The position numbers and the translations under genes are program-made. From positions 1 through 35,073 of the IMG/VR virus record IMGVR_UViG_3300024346_000247: a DNA stretch of 35,073 bases. One strand, 5' to 3'. A model generated the notes under the pieces. That model searched no databases. It had not been told where the DNA came from and saw nothing but the letters and a program-made list of their open reading frames with translations. Positions within the stretch are counted from its first letter, which is position 1. Every line of letters starts with the position of its first letter. This document shows, piece by piece, positions 21,472 through 28,806 of the stretch. Origin of the DNA: a virus.

Positions 21472-24400
21472 CTAGCGATCAAAGGTAGGAGTTACTCCTT
21501 CTTTCCTTTGCTTCTTTTGGTACTTCCTCTGGGACTCTACGCCACCTCCAGTGCGGTAGTACCATACGTCAGACAGAGGAGAGTTACGCCAAGATTTAAT
21601 CTCGAACAGTTCCTTGTCGCCCTTGACCCACGATCTCAGTGACTGTTCACCGTCGATCATAATGTTAATCGCAGGAGGAGTGAAGCGTTGAATTACACTT
21701 TCTACTACACCCTTATTCAGTGCACTAGAAGTAGTGTACCTAGACAGTCCAAACATACCCAGCATATTATTCATTACGTGCTCGGGGATATAGGTATCCT
21801 TGCCTGCAATCCAGTCATCGAGTAAGTCCGATGGTAGGCCAAACATAGTCAACAGGGTAGCCATATATGCGAGCCTACGTAGCGCAACGGTACGTTGCTG
21901 CAATGTTTTTCCTGGGCCACCAAGGTCATTCATAAACTCCTGTCTGTTGTAGTTCAAGTCCAGTAGCATAAAGGTACTAAGCTTGTAGAACAGACGCTTG
22001 CTCGGATCAGTCTGGTATCCCTCTGGCACCTGCAAGTAAGTCAGCGGCTGCCGCTCAAGTAGTTCGGATAGTAGTGCCTCCTTAATCTCTTTGCTCTCTG
22101 CCGCCCTATCTAACTTGAGATCGCTGATGGCCTTCCGTGCACCCTCTGGACCCATTTTAATAGTAAGGTAGTCAACCAACTGCTGGTGCTTCTTAGATCC
22201 TACTGGTGCATTGGCTTTCTTGACGAAGTCATCGTAGGCAGCCTCGACACTAGCGTGCTTCATAGCTGTATCCATTTGACGGAACGGGACCAGACGGCTA
22301 AGACCAAAGTCCAGTGCCTTGGTTAGGAAACTAGGATCTTCAAACTCAGCAGATAGCTGAGTCTTAGCAATACCGAAGTCCCTCTCGATGTCGAACCTAC
22401 GGTTACCTGTAACGGTACGGTAGGTGCCAGAGACTACTCCACCAAGTCCACGGTACAGTGCCACCTTGTACAAGTCCATAATCTGTACGAGCACAGGGCC
22501 AGGGTTGATAAGTGTAGCCATGTACGTAAGCGTACCGAGGCTCTTTAAAATTTCATTCTCCGCTTGGAACTGAGACGTAATCAACTCGGTCAAGCTCTTG
22601 AGTTCATTTGCATCCGCTTGATCAATTTGACCTGCGGTAAATAGTTGCTCGGTAAGTTTACCAAGCTCACCTAGTAAGCGACCCTCGCCCTTCTTAGTAT
22701 CACCCACAACCTTGAAGCTTTCAATCGCTCGGCTCATGTTCGTAGTGTACTTGCCAAAGGCAATGCCTGGGTTGTCGTAGAACTTTAGCTTGTCCTCTGG
22801 TATCAACTGAATCTCACGTGCCTTAACATTGCCTGGAAGTTTAACACCGTTAAGATCCAAACGGAACTTACCTTGCAGGAAGTCCTGAAAGAAACGTGCA
22901 CGCTCGGTCTCTTGCATTTCAGGCAGAGGTGCAGGGTTACCATCTGCATCCTTCATTTCACTACGACGAATGTTCTCTTCGTTGACCAGCAGCTCAAAGG
23001 TACGCTTAGTCTTATGCCCGTAGGATTTAATTAGGCCCTCAAGATCTTTGATTACACGAGGGAAGTAGTCCTCAAGGTAACCAATCTTAGGCATACCGAG
23101 TTCATTGTACTCAGTATATATCTCCTCCAAGATAGGCTGTACGTCCAAGCGGTACATATTAAGTAAGCCGTGCTTGTGAAGTAGCGCATCCCTGCGCTGC
23201 ATCTTAGCTTTATTGGACGGAAGGTTTGCCTCCTCTGGAGTAGGGCTAAAGAACATAAGCTGCTTGAGTTCTTGGAACTCTGCACCCTTAACAGCATTCA
23301 ACTTATTAAAGAACATCTCTGTCTGCTTCCTGTACCCTATAGACCGCATGCGAATAGCAGAGTCTAAGTTCTGAAGTATACGACCAAACATCGGATTGAT
23401 ACGATTCAGTCGTGTAATGACTGGAGTCAGGTACTTCGATGCAGTCTTACGGAAGGCACCGTCGAGCCACTTGCGCTCTTCACGGATGCGCTCAGATGCA
23501 TCCTGGCCTACCCTTTCACCCGCTTCGGTGTTCTCCTTGGCAGTGTTCTTGTCTGTTGCATCGTAAGCCCGTGCTACCACGTCCTGATTCTTGGGTCGGA
23601 GTGCAGGGTCTGCTGCCTTCAGCAGCTCCACAGAGTCAACAATGACCTGTGCAGCTTCAGGGTTAGTCTTGATCATTGGCCCCAGTACCTTAGCCATATA
23701 AGCCTGTACCGAGCGAAGTAGTTGTACGATGGCATTCCAAGCTGGACCGCCTTGGCTTTCCATTTGGTACTGCTCGGAAAACTCTCCATATAATAAATTC
23801 TGTATTACTGCACGGCTGTACTCTGAGCCATAGGCAACATAGTCCTCGGGCTTGATGTTCTGGTACACATCTTTAATATCCGAAAGCTCTACATCGGTAA
23901 GGGTTTTACCATAGGCATCGAAGAAGTCTCTCCATACCTTGCCTCCCTCGGCCATAGAGAATTTCTTTCTGGCCGAAACCATTAGGACTTGGTGCATAGC
24001 AGCGTGAATTATTTCTTCACGCATTGCTGCACGTACGCCAGCCTTGCTGCGTTTAAGCAGCAGCATAGGGTTGTACTCAATGATCCCCCTAGTAGCATTG
24101 TAACGTGCTACATAGTCGGTGTTCCCCATTCGCATAACGATAGGAGTACTGATCTTATCGCCTATAGGAAAGAACTCCTTCTCGATGGCATCCTGTACTT
24201 GGCCGCCATTGTCGTAGGTATCTCTGGGACCACGGTCCTCTACCTCGGTGTCAGTAGCCTGAGCTGTTACGTCTTCTTGACTGGCTAGTCTTACTCCCTC
24301 TTCGTATGTATCTACTTCTGGAAAGCCAGTTCCATCGTATTCACTTCCGACCGTTCCATCGAAACGCATAAACACTACGTCTGGCTGACCTCCATTGAAG

Positions 24401-27400
24401 TTTCTATAAGTTTGAGTAGACCAACCATCGGGTTGAAACTCAGGATTAAACTTTAATCTAGCGACTGGAGTAAATCCATAGCTTGCGTACTTGACGGGAA
24501 GAACAGTTTCAAATCCATTTAAAAACTTAACCTTACCAGTAGAGATAGCCATATCAAAGGCTGCATCTACATCTTGAGCTGTAGCATTAGAAGATTTAGT
24601 TACACTGGATAGTTCTCCATCTGGGGAGATTGCCATAGTAACACTTTCGCCACGCTCGCTAGAGGTAATGATTAGATCATAACCTTTATAATCAGAAGCT
24701 TTGAATACATCAACAGATGATCCAAATTTATTCCCGTCTTTATTATCTTTCGCAATTCTTGCGAATCTATTCTCGCCTAGAACGGGGCCTCGCTTAACAA
24801 CTTTAAGGCTTCCTTTTGGTTCTTTGCCAGTCCCATTTTTATAACTGACCTTACCTGTGTAGCTTGAGAGCCTGTTAATTGATCTTGTAACTTGTCGTTT
24901 TCTGTTTGATTCAACTGAGCTGCTTTCATATACCGCTCCGCTTCCTCTGGATTTGAGGTAATCAGAGATAACACGTTGTCTAAGGAATTTGTCATATTCT
25001 TTTCTGTTTTCATTTTGTCTTGTTTTTGCTACGGCATCAGGGAACTCAATGTCACGTTTAACTAAACGTTCTTTAGCTAAGAAATCAAGTATCAAGTTAG
25101 CATCTGCTTCACTCCTCGTCGATCCATCGACAGGATAGAAGACATCGGCTGGCTCATCAAAGGAAGACTTAAGTGCACCCGCTGCACCAGTCCACCCGTT
25201 GCGATCCCATATTTGTTTTTCTCCAAACCATACTAAAGCCTGCAAATCGTCTGGGTTCATGTTCAGCTTTTGTGCTGCCCTACGAAAAACTAACTGCCCT
25301 AATGCAAAGTCAGGATTATTTACTGCTGTCTCTTGAGATGGAAGAATCCTAGCATCCGCCTGCCCAGCGTAGATAACCCTACGCAATAGACGAGCAGCCC
25401 ATACATCAATTGTTGCCTCCAGAGATTCACCATTCAAGTTCATCGTGAACTGAGGTGTCTTAGGGGTCATCTTGTCCTTGCTTAGTCTCTCATTAAACCA
25501 GACTTGGGCCAATGCCTTTAATGCAGGGTAAGAGTTTGTTCCGTATTTTTTACCGCTAGTTTGCGCTGGCTCCAAGTTATAATGCTCGGCAGCCGAGCTT
25601 AGTAAAGCACTCGGCTCAGACTTCTTAATCATCTCAGGTGTGTATAGCACACCCTTACTGTTCTTTACCTTATCTTTAAGTAGTAAATCCCCGAGTGTAC
25701 CAGCCTTCATTTGGCCATACAACTTTAAGTACTCTTTAATATTTGCATCAAACTCTCCCGCTTTAAATCTATTATATAGATCTACGCTAAAACGAAAGTT
25801 AGTTTCAACTGGTGTTTGAGCAGAAGTAGTTCCTAATAACTGAGTAAAGATTGGCAAGTCATTGCCAAATATCTGACTGAGGCGTTGACGCATTCTACCA
25901 TACCAACCAATTCCAGCAGCAATGGCTGGGTCATTCATCATAGTAGCAGCTTCATTTGCTACTTGGTCGGCTAGATTATCTACGGCCCCCGATGCAATCG
26001 CTGCATTTAATTCCTGCTGTTGTGGACTTGACACAACATAATGAAAGGAACCATAGTCTGGAACGGAAGTATCAGTGGGTCCAGGGCCACTGTAATCGCT
26101 GATAAAAGGAGAACTTAGTAGATCGTAGTCCCGTGTTACTTTCTTTTCTTTGGGCTTTGAAGGTGCCGCCTCGGCCACCACGTCTCCTTCAATTTGTTCA
26201 TTCGTTCTGTATTCCCTCATGTTCCTGTAATCCAGGACAACACCATATCTGTCATAGCTTTTATCCTCGTCAGACATCGCTTCACGAACTTCTTGAAGAG
26301 TCATAGGGCTTGTTTGAGGGTAGCCGTTAAACGGATCTACAAATTCATAGAGCGGTTCTCCCTCGGCCTTATCTAATGGTGCCGCCTCGGCCACTACGTC
26401 TGGTCCTAGAGACAGCCACTCATTACTTGGTGTAGCTCCGTACTGAGGATTCTTAACTAGGACAAGCGGTCCGATCTGAATAGCTTGGTCGCCTGCGACC
26501 ACCTCCTGCATTGTCTCACGGTTATAGAAGTAACCTCTGCGCTCTGGGTCCATACCTACCTGTATGTAAGACGGATCTTTGAGGGCCTTGTCGGCCATCT
26601 TCTTAGCTTGAGTAGAAGTTACATTTTTGTATGTTCCCCGAATCGTAGCTATAGTAGTTTTGTCTTTTCCAGTTGCTATGTTTAAGGCGGCGAGGCCGTT
26701 TTTTCCAGCCACGCCAAGCTGCACGTTTTCAAGAACCCCTGTAGATTTATACGAAAGTGGATTACCAGCCTGAAAACTGTTACCTTTCGGTTCGTGAATT
26801 ACAGGAATCCAAGTTCCGTAATATTTGTATGCGGGAATATCCAAACGCATAGCTACTAGCTTTCCGTCAGGAACTACTGCGTTAAAGAGAGGAACTTGAT
26901 TCTCTTTCAAGGCAGTGCGCATTTCCGAGTTAGTCTCAGGGGCAGGCACAAAATCATAAGCGTGCACTGGTTTAAACTCATCCGCAACCTCTGCTAACCT
27001 GCGGCTTTGCTGACGATCACCAGCCTTAATGTTTTCCTTAAGTATCTTGGCTTGCTCTTGGATCTCTGGAGTGCGCTTCAAAACATCCTTGAAAGACATT
27101 GACAGGCGGTCCACGCCTGCCACTTCAGCCGTTACATCTTGTGCAATAGCAACCGAGATAGGCTTTCTGCTGTTAGGGTTATAACCCTTCTTCATCTGCG
27201 CACGTACTTCCTTGCCCATTGCATTAATTTCAGCAGGTGAATACCCAGCTTCAATTAACTCTGACCGAACCCTAGAAGCGTTCTTGCCTTTGCCATTTGC
27301 CATATAAACAGCAAGCTCAAGGTCCGAGTTATATGCAACCTTCTGACCGCTGTACCTTGGTTTAGACTGAGACATCCTTGGAGAGATACGGAAGTTACCA

Positions 27401-28806
27401 CGTACTGCTGGTGCTTGTTCTCTAGCACGCTTTTCTAATTGATCAACTACCGCTGGAGCCTCACGGCGAAACTGCTCTTCGCTCATACCAGCTTGTTTAG
27501 CTCTGGTCTGTATGTTGGATAGTTCTTGCTCTGGATCTAAATCTAAAACATCTGGCTCTGGTGCCTGCTCTACAGCAGCCTCTGGCTGCACTGGTACTTG
27601 CTCCCGTGTAGGATCGGGTGCTTGGTCAGGTAGGTCTAGCTCTTGTTCAGGGCCAACAGGCACAGGTGCACTAACTGTATCAATTTGCATTGGGTACGTT
27701 GTATCGTACCGACCAGCTAGTTCTGCTTCGACTGCTGCCCTTGGATCTTGGCCAGCATCAATGGCCAATGATACCGTCTTTACTGGACCATCAATTGGCT
27801 TGTAGGTTACTGTAACCGCATCGGGGATAGTAAGCTCTGATCTTTCTTGAACTGGTTTATTTAAGTCTGCCTTTGTTCCGCCTGATGGTGCACTTGGTGC
27901 ACCTCCAATAAGTTGTACCCCTCCGCTCACTGTCCCACCTACTACAGCACCTACGCCGAACTCTAAAGCACGCTTCCTGAGTACGTCCATTGACACAAGC
28001 TCACGGTCTTCGTCGTACAGTAAAGATGCAATGGTATCAAGCGACTGCCCTTGCAGTGCTTCAGTGCCGCCTTCTGCCAATGAGGATTCCCCCATTTGAC
28101 GAAGTGCACTCTTTTGCTTTTCAATAGCTTTCTTTAGAGCCTTATTAGATACGCCACCCTTTTGAAGTTGTCTCAAGACAGGACGCATTATCTTGCCTAA
28201 TGCTGCTGTCTCAAGGGCAGTACCAATTGCAGTCTGAGCAAGCATACCAACAAGAGCTTGATCCTTTTCATTTTCATCAAAGTCCGTGTATCCTTTTTGA
28301 AGCGTCTGCTCCATATCGCCAAGAAACTCAGATGACATTTGACCACCTGTAGTAAGAGCCGCTGCACCTATCATTCCAGGAACGTTACCCGCAGCAAAGC
28401 CTGCTGCACCAGCAGCAGCGGTAACTGGTAATTGACCAATGCCACGGAACACTTGCCCTGCAAAGGATTCTCCAAACTCTCTATCTAATCCAACGTTTTC
28501 ACCAATGCCTTGACCGTACTGCCGTAGATCCTGAGCGGCCTCAAGCATACTATCGCTTTGATAAACTTGTCCTGCCCACTGGGTAATGCCAGCAATAGTA
28601 CTAACAGTAGACTCAGCTGCACCAGTAAATAATCCCTTAACAACGTCTAAAGCAAGAGGATCTTCTGCATCTATAACCTTAGGCGGTAAACTTTGTTGAG
28701 TAGTTTGCTGCTGTAAAACATTAAAGATATCACTTTCAGAAGCACCCTCTGGGTGCGTGACTTTGTATTGCTTACCTTGAGGGTCAGTTACTATACTTAC
28801 TGGCAT
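21472..28806 (-). CDS. Giant internal virion (ejection) polyvalent protein, 2,444 aa
   Basis: This one gene covers 21% of the window. The N-terminus (VTDPQGKQYKVTHPEGASES) is a small domain common at the start of such proteins. Residues about 50-310 are Gly/Ala-rich hydrophobic helices (AAAGAAGFAAGNVPGMIGAA), about 372-428 a Pro/Glu/Gln linker. Further segments: about 750-770 MDPERRGYFYNRETMQ; about 980-1015 GNDLPIFTQLLGTTSAQTPV; about 1385-1487 a GNAT-like region (SISPDGELSSVTK-type start as ISPDGELSSVTK, then YASYGFTPVARLKFNPEF, QPDVVFMRFDG); about 1590-1605 REEIIHAAMHQ, a possible metal-binding helix. The C-terminal 700 residues are helical. Ejection with the DNA and action in the cell are inferred. 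Confidence 0.75.
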   Translation of the reverse strand: MPVSIVTDPQGKQYKVTHPEGASESDIFNVLQQQTTQQSLPPKVIDAEDPLALDVVKGLFTGAAESTVSTIAGITQWAGQVYQSDSMLEAAQDLRQYGQGIGENVGLDREFGESFAGQVFRGIGQLPVTAAAGAAGFAAGNVPGMIGAAALTTGGQMSSEFLGDMEQTLQKGYTDFDENEKDQALVGMLAQTAIGTALETAALGKIMRPVLRQLQKGGVSNKALKKAIEKQKSALRQMGESSLAEGGTEALQGQSLDTIASLLYDEDRELVSMDVLRKRALEFGVGAVVGGTVSGGVQLIGGAPSAPSGGTKADLNKPVQERSELTIPDAVTVTYKPIDGPVKTVSLAIDAGQDPRAAVEAELAGRYDTTYPMQIDTVSAPVPVGPEQELDLPDQAPDPTREQVPVQPEAAVEQAPEPDVLDLDPEQELSNIQTRAKQAGMSEEQFRREAPAVVDQLEKRAREQAPAVRGNFRISPRMSQSKPRYSGQKVAYNSDLELAVYMANGKGKNASRVRSELIEAGYSPAEINAMGKEVRAQMKKGYNPNSRKPISVAIAQDVTAEVAGVDRLSMSFKDVLKRTPEIQEQAKILKENIKAGDRQQSRRLAEVADEFKPVHAYDFVPAPETNSEMRTALKENQVPLFNAVVPDGKLVAMRLDIPAYKYYGTWIPVIHEPKGNSFQAGNPLSYKSTGVLENVQLGVAGKNGLAALNIATGKDKTTIATIRGTYKNVTSTQAKKMADKALKDPSYIQVGMDPERRGYFYNRETMQEVVAGDQAIQIGPLVLVKNPQYGATPSNEWLSLGPDVVAEAAPLDKAEGEPLYEFVDPFNGYPQTSPMTLQEVREAMSDEDKSYDRYGVVLDYRNMREYRTNEQIEGDVVAEAAPSKPKEKKVTRDYDLLSSPFISDYSGPGPTDTSVPDYGSFHYVVSSPQQQELNAAIASGAVDNLADQVANEAATMMNDPAIAAGIGWYGRMRQRLSQIFGNDLPIFTQLLGTTSAQTPVETNFRFSVDLYNRFKAGEFDANIKEYLKLYGQMKAGTLGDLLLKDKVKNSKGVLYTPEMIKKSEPSALLSSAAEHYNLEPAQTSGKKYGTNSYPALKALAQVWFNERLSKDKMTPKTPQFTMNLNGESLEATIDVWAARLLRRVIYAGQADARILPSQETAVNNPDFALGQLVFRRAAQKLNMNPDDLQALVWFGEKQIWDRNGWTGAAGALKSSFDEPADVFYPVDGSTRSEADANLILDFLAKERLVKRDIEFPDAVAKTRQNENRKEYDKFLRQRVISDYLKSRGSGAVYESSSVESNRKRQVTRSINRLSSYTGKVSYKNGTGKEPKGSLKVVKRGPVLGENRFARIAKDNKDGNKFGSSVDVFKASDYKGYDLIITSSERGESVTMAISPDGELSSVTKSSNATAQDVDAAFDMAISTGKVKFLNGFETVLPVKYASYGFTPVARLKFNPEFQPDGWSTQTYRNFNGGQPDVVFMRFDGTVGSEYDGTGFPEVDTYEEGVRLASQEDVTAQATDTEVEDRGPRDTYDNGGQVQDAIEKEFFPIGDKISTPIVMRMGNTDYVARYNATRGIIEYNPMLLLKRSKAGVRAAMREEIIHAAMHQVLMVSARKKFSMAEGGKVWRDFFDAYGKTLTDVELSDIKDVYQNIKPEDYVAYGSEYSRAVIQNLLYGEFSEQYQMESQGGPAWNAIVQLLRSVQAYMAKVLGPMIKTNPEAAQVIVDSVELLKAADPALRPKNQDVVARAYDATDKNTAKENTEAGERVGQDASERIREERKWLDGAFRKTASKYLTPVITRLNRINPMFGRILQNLDSAIRMRSIGYRKQTEMFFNKLNAVKGAEFQELKQLMFFSPTPEEANLPSNKAKMQRRDALLHKHGLLNMYRLDVQPILEEIYTEYNELGMPKIGYLEDYFPRVIKDLEGLIKSYGHKTKRTFELLVNEENIRRSEMKDADGNPAPLPEMQETERARFFQDFLQGKFRLDLNGVKLPGNVKAREIQLIPEDKLKFYDNPGIAFGKYTTNMSRAIESFKVVGDTKKGEGRLLGELGKLTEQLFTAGQIDQADANELKSLTELITSQFQAENEILKSLGTLTYMATLINPGPVLVQIMDLYKVALYRGLGGVVSGTYRTVTGNRRFDIERDFGIAKTQLSAEFEDPSFLTKALDFGLSRLVPFRQMDTAMKHASVEAAYDDFVKKANAPVGSKKHQQLVDYLTIKMGPEGARKAISDLKLDRAAESKEIKEALLSELLERQPLTYLQVPEGYQTDPSKRLFYKLSTFMLLDLNYNRQEFMNDLGGPGKTLQQRTVALRRLAYMATLLTMFGLPSDLLDDWIAGKDTYIPEHVMNNMLGMFGLSRYTTSSALNKGVVESVIQRFTPPAINIMIDGEQSLRSWVKGDKELFEIKSWRNSPLSDVWYYRTGGGVESQRKYQKKQRKEGVTPTFDR
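24777..25013 (-). CDS. Possible overprinted gene inside the giant gene, 78 aa
   Basis: In another minus-strand frame within the giant gene (residues about 1264-1343) a 78-codon frame encodes a regular helical protein: MTNSLDNVLSLITSNPEEAE from its second Met, RYMKAAQLNQTENDKLQDQL, and SVIKMGLAKNQKEALKLLSE. Its composition looks more protein-like than chance, and its leader ACAAGACAAAATG resembles the phage early leaders. In the same segment the giant protein is basic and low in complexity. Chance cannot be excluded. Confidence 0.35.
   Translation of the reverse strand: MKTEKNMTNSLDNVLSLITSNPEEAERYMKAAQLNQTENDKLQDQLTGSQATQVRSVIKMGLAKNQKEALKLLSEAPF

Follow-up and report, generated by a model that had tools for sequence, protein, structure and literature searches.

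What does a single phage gene coding for 2,444 amino acids carry in its middle, how do these parts come and go, and what might they do during infection? The question is raised by gene P0001 of a podophage-like virus record of 35,073 bases, which was analysed at its full length and is called the window here. An initial annotation had placed the gene at 21472-28806 without naming a strand. The ORF listing and the translation give an open reading frame of 2,444 aa exactly there, on the minus strand (window 28806-21472), while the plus strand over the same positions is a reading frame full of stops. The segments quoted in that annotation are present as well, YASYGFTPVARL at residue 1440, QPDVVFMRFDG at 1474 and REEIIHAAMHQ at 1596.

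Polyvalent proteins, with GNAT and zincin domains among their parts, are a class already described, for which injection and an early action are supposed, according to passages of Iyer et al. 2017 (PMC5512222). Here we ask how far P0001 belongs to this class and what is particular to it.

Gene context and relatives

P0001 is the final gene of a minus-strand virion operon whose gene order is kept in relatives. Ahead of P0001, the operon has a 445-aa protein, which matches head-closure and internal virion PHROGs, then two tail-fibre-like proteins and the proteins of 160, 462 and 429 aa. The TerL and the portal of the window are 75% and 69% identical to those of Phage C75C1, and no relative of P0001 was detectable in that phage. 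The equivalent place in Phage C75C1 (L070, OQ984151.1; 38751-12738 across the origin) holds a 2.8-kaa and a 1.3-kaa protein, with no similarity to P0001.

Relatives of P0001 were found at 20 IMG/VR loci, and dN/dS was 0.09-0.15 in the C-terminal core and 0.08-0.17 in the GNAT-like module. Therefore, with relatives at 20 loci and a low dN/dS, a sign of purifying selection, the ORF is not due to chance. Regarding the whole protein, the only strong matches in Pfam, PHROGs and NCBIfam were DUF7178 and phrog_3842; no LPD domain reached the cut-off in Pfam, phmmer against the PDB gave no match, and none of 50,697 phage records matched the C-terminal core.

The size of the gene had been presented as exceptional, internal virion proteins being usually below 1,500 aa. 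This is right for the classical gp16 type, since T7 gp16-like homologues are listed at 609-1,337 aa (PMC8954989), all of them exceeded by P0001. Nevertheless, it does not extend to the N4 virion RNA polymerase, a protein of about 3,500 residues that also has an HExxH domain (PMC12633501), nor to the relatives of the P0001 modules, which occur in ORFs of 2,200-5,169 aa. P0001 resembles the podophage ejection proteins (T7 gp16, N4 vRNAP) in its position in the virion operon and its hydrophobic segments, and N4 vRNAP also in being very large. It differs from them in a cargo slot that varies between close relatives, and neither a peptidoglycan hydrolase nor an RNA polymerase domain was recognised in it.

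Layout of the protein

The coordinates of all the features are collected in Table 1.

Table 1. Features of P0001 and of its operon; positions are those of the window.
Feature	Residues or sizes	Position	Strand	Description	Basis
Upstream virion-operon genes	429, 462, 160, 237, 223, 445 aa	28853..34821	-		order common to relatives
P0001, whole gene	2,444 aa	21472..28806	-		ORF, translation, relatives
N part	1-556	27139..28806	-		conserved in relatives; hydropathy
Linker J1	557-563	27118..27138	-	DVTAEVA	
Module A	564-802	26401..27117	-	widespread phage domain	viral-contig matches
Linker J2	803-809	26380..26400	-	DVVAEAA	
Module B	810-874	26185..26379	-	short, common to window and L006	
Linker J3	875-881	26164..26184	-	DVVAEAA	20/21 nt identical to J2
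Module C	882-1308	24883..26163	-	contains DUF7178; predicted 8-oxoguanine-glycosylase-like fold	Pfam, model, VIA-align
K1116 to D1134	1116-1134	25405..25461	-	candidate catalytic Lys/Asp pair of an HhH-GPD site	invariance, spacing
Module D	1309-1511	24274..24882	-	GNAT fold, predicted	model, Foldseek, VIA-align
GNAT core of module D	about 1345-1485	24352-24774	-		
Linker J4	1512-1518	24253..24273	-	DVTAQAT	
Domain E	1519-1741	23584..24252	-	EEIIH domain, probably decayed zincin	
REEIIHAAMHQ	1596-1606	23989..24021	-		
Linker-like J5	1742-1748	23563..23583	-	DVVARAY, less exact, away from mapped exchange edges	
C-terminal core	1749-2444	21475..23562	-	conserved	

Judged by its hydropathy profile, the N part is hydrophobic in stretches around aa 128, 185 and 283, and the equivalent part in the relative L006 matches phrog_6958, a virion structural protein. 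Module A of P0001 has no Pfam or PHROG match, although it is widespread, at least 583 candidates having been counted in viral contigs; its relatives include roseophage and ctYwJ313 proteins, encoded by genes placed after the portal. Its RLDIPAY and FYxR motifs (loci L101-L180) resemble an uncharacterised polyvalent domain. A 5,169-aa ORF of L018 (642-16148) holds module C and part of A in a different order.

Exchange of the middle of the gene

Residues 565-1510 are swapped wholesale between relatives, whereas the core from about residue 1510 stays 75-98% identical; the N part is moderately conserved. P0001 thus has a mosaic structure, in which a fixed N part and a C-terminal core surround an exchangeable middle, and this middle looks like a cassette slot inside the gene.

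The exchange borders are sharp at the DNA level, and three patterns were found:

i) Replacement of the whole middle. Three relatives (L002, L004 and L012) have no DNA in common with the window from the N part to about residue 1510.

ii) Loss of one module. In L001 and L010 the blocks corresponding to residues 874-1306 and 1509 onward are separated by only about 6 nt, so the GNAT module is missing there as one clean in-frame block.

iii) A single common block. L011, L013 and L015 have one 1.9-kb block (residues 888-1517) in common with the window at 81-83% nucleotide identity, and no window DNA beyond it, which suggests that phages unrelated in other respects have exchanged it.

Regarding the alternative cargo, that of L002 (8336-10258) matches phage proteins annotated as lysin, RelA/SpoT or large polyvalent protein, as well as 187 mycobacteriophage records; from these matches, the slot appears to accept other polyvalent domains too. 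The alternative cargo of L008 had no match in phage records.

A repeated linker at the module edges

Seven residues with the pattern DV[VT]A[EQ]AA recur at J1 to J4 and, less exactly, at J5. In ten family proteins 26 of the 31 copies lie at module edges, where 2.7 would be expected, the motif having been derived from the very sequences in which these edges lie. In five held-out relatives, which took no part in the definition, the copies were again on edges with two exceptions, one of them a copy of the J5 type and the other a copy lying close to the end of an ORF that is incomplete. Furthermore, the linker is absent from 28,815 control residues, which belong to fifteen giant proteins whose core is more distantly related. 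Repeated linkers mark the module edges, although modules C and D have none between them.

The repetition is also seen in the DNA. De novo repeat detection returned J2 and J3 as a direct repeat of 24 nt with 96% identity, and the window has four copies of the linker DNA with at most 3 mismatches (0.05 expected by shuffling), a descriptive figure because the pattern was derived from these sequences. Among the 223 Ala codons of the gene GCC and GCG are rare, with 34 and 24 occurrences, and they come back at matching positions from linker to linker. When viral contigs were scanned for exact matches, 19 stretches were obtained; 11 of them belong to the P0001 family, the others looking unrelated. 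The same 21-nt pattern (LVADVAAEAAL) occurs in an unrelated 81-aa ORF of five contigs (L221, L223, L225, L228 and L233), apparently by coincidence.

Such linkers may be recombination joints or protease sites. As protease sites, they would be cut by a prohead or other protease so that the precursor frees its effectors in the manner of a polyprotein. The linkers do sit between domains, and polyvalent proteins have been proposed to undergo processing, P1 DdrB being processed before packaging (passages of PMC5512222). However, not only the residues but also the codons of the linker are conserved, rare Ala codons included, and cleavage needs no conserved codons; in addition, modules C and D lack a linker between them and no adjoining protease gene was recognised. 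We consider release by cleavage quite improbable, although the linker might equally be some processing site or plain inherited filler. The conserved codons lean toward a recombination joint, and recombination rather than cleavage is what we infer at the linkers.

A glycosylase-like module

The initial annotation had pointed to two domains and missed a third one, module C. Its structural model (pLDDT 86, pTM 0.82) had no match with Foldseek alone. With VIA-align, the top five rows were all 8-oxoguanine DNA glycosylases, with Z 9.9 (179 aa, 4.0 A), 7.5, 6.8, 6.8 and 6.5, and the next unrelated row had Z 5.2; the value of 9.9 is too low to be safe for helical proteins, among which middling Z scores are common, and is suggestive when taken alone. 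In BFVD similar structures were found in many phage proteins, some of them named ART-PolyVal, N-acetyltransferase or large polyvalent.

HhH-GPD glycosylases have a catalytic Asp and, in the bifunctional enzymes, also a Lys about 18-19 residues apart from it. In module C, K1116 and D1134 are invariant in alignment A9 and are 18 apart. The same spacing of 18 separates K120 and D138 of E. coli endonuclease III (Nth), whose sequence was checked; these two are its catalytic residues. The alignment thus clearly contains a conserved Lys and Asp at the spacing of a putative glycosylase site, and the glycosylase fold predicted from the model is supported too, although more weakly.

Regarding similarity in sequence, module C stands apart from the HhH-GPD superfamily, as well as in being embedded in a virion protein and belonging to DUF7178. 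No search gave a significant link between DUF7178 and glycosylases, the module C profile found no glycosylase in the PDB, and hhalign of A9 against endonuclease III gave no useful alignment. With the broader profile A10, the best local alignment to endonuclease III was the K..D segment, without significance. Solo DUF7178 proteins have K..F..D[RT]H motifs (DRHA/DTH), and one of them is annotated 'glycosylase'; phages Cece, A-4L and Panino have such solo genes outside a virion context. In the literature searched we found no publications on DUF7178. Taking the fold model, the Lys/Asp spacing and the solo proteins together, we regard it as quite probable that module C is of the HhH-GPD type.

The GNAT-fold module and the EEIIH domain

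Residues 1300-1760 were modelled with AlphaFold2, and the model has a mean pLDDT of 78 and the strand and helix order of a GNAT; structure prediction in this analysis left out two rows taken from phage records. Its best 50 Foldseek matches were GNATs, counting LasI, of related fold, and VIA-align against RimI gave Z 11.3 (141 aa, 4.0 A) and Z 11.1 (133 aa, 2.6 A). At the level of the model the GNAT fold of module D therefore holds, in agreement with solved acetyltransferases. In sequence searches the signal was faint: the PDB gave a weak GNAT match, 2qec (E 0.14), which was gone with a broader profile, and no acetyltransferase model of Pfam matched the members of this region.

Catalysis, the other half of what had been proposed for this segment, did not fare so well. 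GNATs bind the pyrophosphate of acetyl-CoA at a loop, (Q/R)xxGxG/A, where sister domains in other giant phage proteins have GAGR or GGGR. Module D keeps the Tyr of RimI-like GNATs four residues ahead of GF in the YxxxGF helix, but unlike them its clade has no glycines in this loop, which reads SSNATAQDV and similar. With the loop degenerate, acetyltransferase activity is doubtful; its dN/dS shows that the module is selected, perhaps for a function other than catalysis. GNAT-like domains also occur in giant ORFs of many phages, and one terminates a minor capsid protein of Microbacterium phage Caron. Limnohabitans phage DC33 (L023, PQ492659.1) has one in a 9.4-kb ORF; this phage is filed under Inoviridae, a taxonomy that appears wrong given its 39-kb genome.

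Domain E contains the helix that had been thought to bind metal. Every aligned relative has R-E-E-I-[IV]-H-A, that is EEXXH where a zincin has HEXXH, and neither HEXXH nor HEXXXH was found in domain E of any of them, so the canonical zincin site is absent and the proposal is not upheld. Within the model, the predicted order is a helix, three strands, the motif helix and a later helix with the invariant Glu1662, which fits the zincin core as described in passages of PMC5512222. SprT-like matches were obtained for five of the ten relatives (E 0.006-0.04, below the curated cut-off), and the VIA-align rows of this model were filled by GNATs, with no zincin among them. Domain E is probably a zincin whose first metal-binding His has turned into Glu, a decayed metallopeptidase; its sequence makes zincin descent likely, and metallopeptidase activity not.

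These results bear on the role that had been proposed for the cargo, namely that the injected protein disables host defences ahead of transcription by means of its acetyltransferase and metalloprotease domains. The predicted GNAT fold would suit it, GNATs and zincins are listed as early effectors in polyvalent proteins (in passages of PMC5512222), and the quick turnover of cargo among close relatives suits an arms race. But the degenerate loop of module D, EEXXH in place of HEXXH in all aligned relatives and a defence target that is not known make this role unlikely.

The degenerate motifs would also agree with a structural ejection protein that keeps dead enzyme folds for their shape, for packing, channel building or DNA binding, the exchange being neutral mosaicism; a mosaic make-up is a known trait of ejection proteins (PMC8954989). 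A purely structural role is rather improbable in our opinion, because module C has its invariant Lys and Asp at glycosylase spacing and solo DUF7178 genes exist outside the virion context.

Comparison with polyvalent proteins

By its architecture and gene context P0001 belongs to the polyvalent ejection-type class, as had been suggested; ejection itself is probable, P0001 being probably injected together with the phage DNA. As in the parts of PMC5512222 that concern these proteins, it is large, multidomain and located among virion genes, and it has disparate domains, GNAT and zincin-like ones included: at the level of predicted folds, a single ORF combines a GNAT fold, a glycosylase-like DUF7178 domain and a zincin-like domain. 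It also has the strong mosaicism reported there for Helicobacter jhp1044. Compared with the same parts, P0001 differs in the repeated linker at the module edges, the EEXXH form of the zincin motif and the OGG-like HhH-GPD domain in its cargo. Thus the class is known, while a slot with a repeated joint and a glycosylase-like cargo were not found in the literature searched.

Proposed role and implications

We give somewhat better than even chances to P0001 being a virion-borne polyvalent protein of the ejection type, with a linker-jointed slot whose cargo acts early and whose glycosylase-like module excises bases. The N part and the C-terminal core would enclose the slot (about aa 565-1510), and the modules would be joined by the DV[VT]A[EQ]AA linker, with its partly repeated DNA, and be gained, lost and exchanged there, also with unrelated phages. 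The cargo in the window would consist of domain A, the short B, the HhH-GPD-like C with Lys and Asp of catalytic type and D, of GNAT fold and degenerate loop. Packaged in the head and then ejected with the DNA, the protein would act within the first minutes of infection. Packaging, ejection, catalysis and targets are all parts that we infer.

The base excision would most likely serve to repair the incoming genome, or else to attack other DNA. The cargo could have roles in repair of the incoming genome, in attack on host or rival DNA or in modification of host proteins, and we favour, with modest confidence, an action on DNA upon entry. Counter-defence is one possible role and repair of the incoming genome is another; DNA repair on entry fits the glycosylase-like module at least as well as disarming of host defences. 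Host DNA glycosylases serve as anti-phage defences (PMC13160076), so base excision already belongs to the conflict between phage and host. That this single virion gene is a dedicated system for cargo exchange, with a DNA-linker joint and an injected DNA glycosylase that repairs the genome or attacks other DNA, is a tentative reading with well below even chances.

If the 21-bp linker marks the cassette borders, the cargo could be listed by reading between linkers, and the polyvalent protein becomes a testable architecture, with recombination or processing at the linkers. If DUF7178 has a glycosylase-like fold, this would hint at what the solo genes in cyanophages, actinobacteriophages and others do. 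Finally, an injected base-excision enzyme, if true, would give a new explanation of how phages deal, on entry, with DNA that is damaged or modified.
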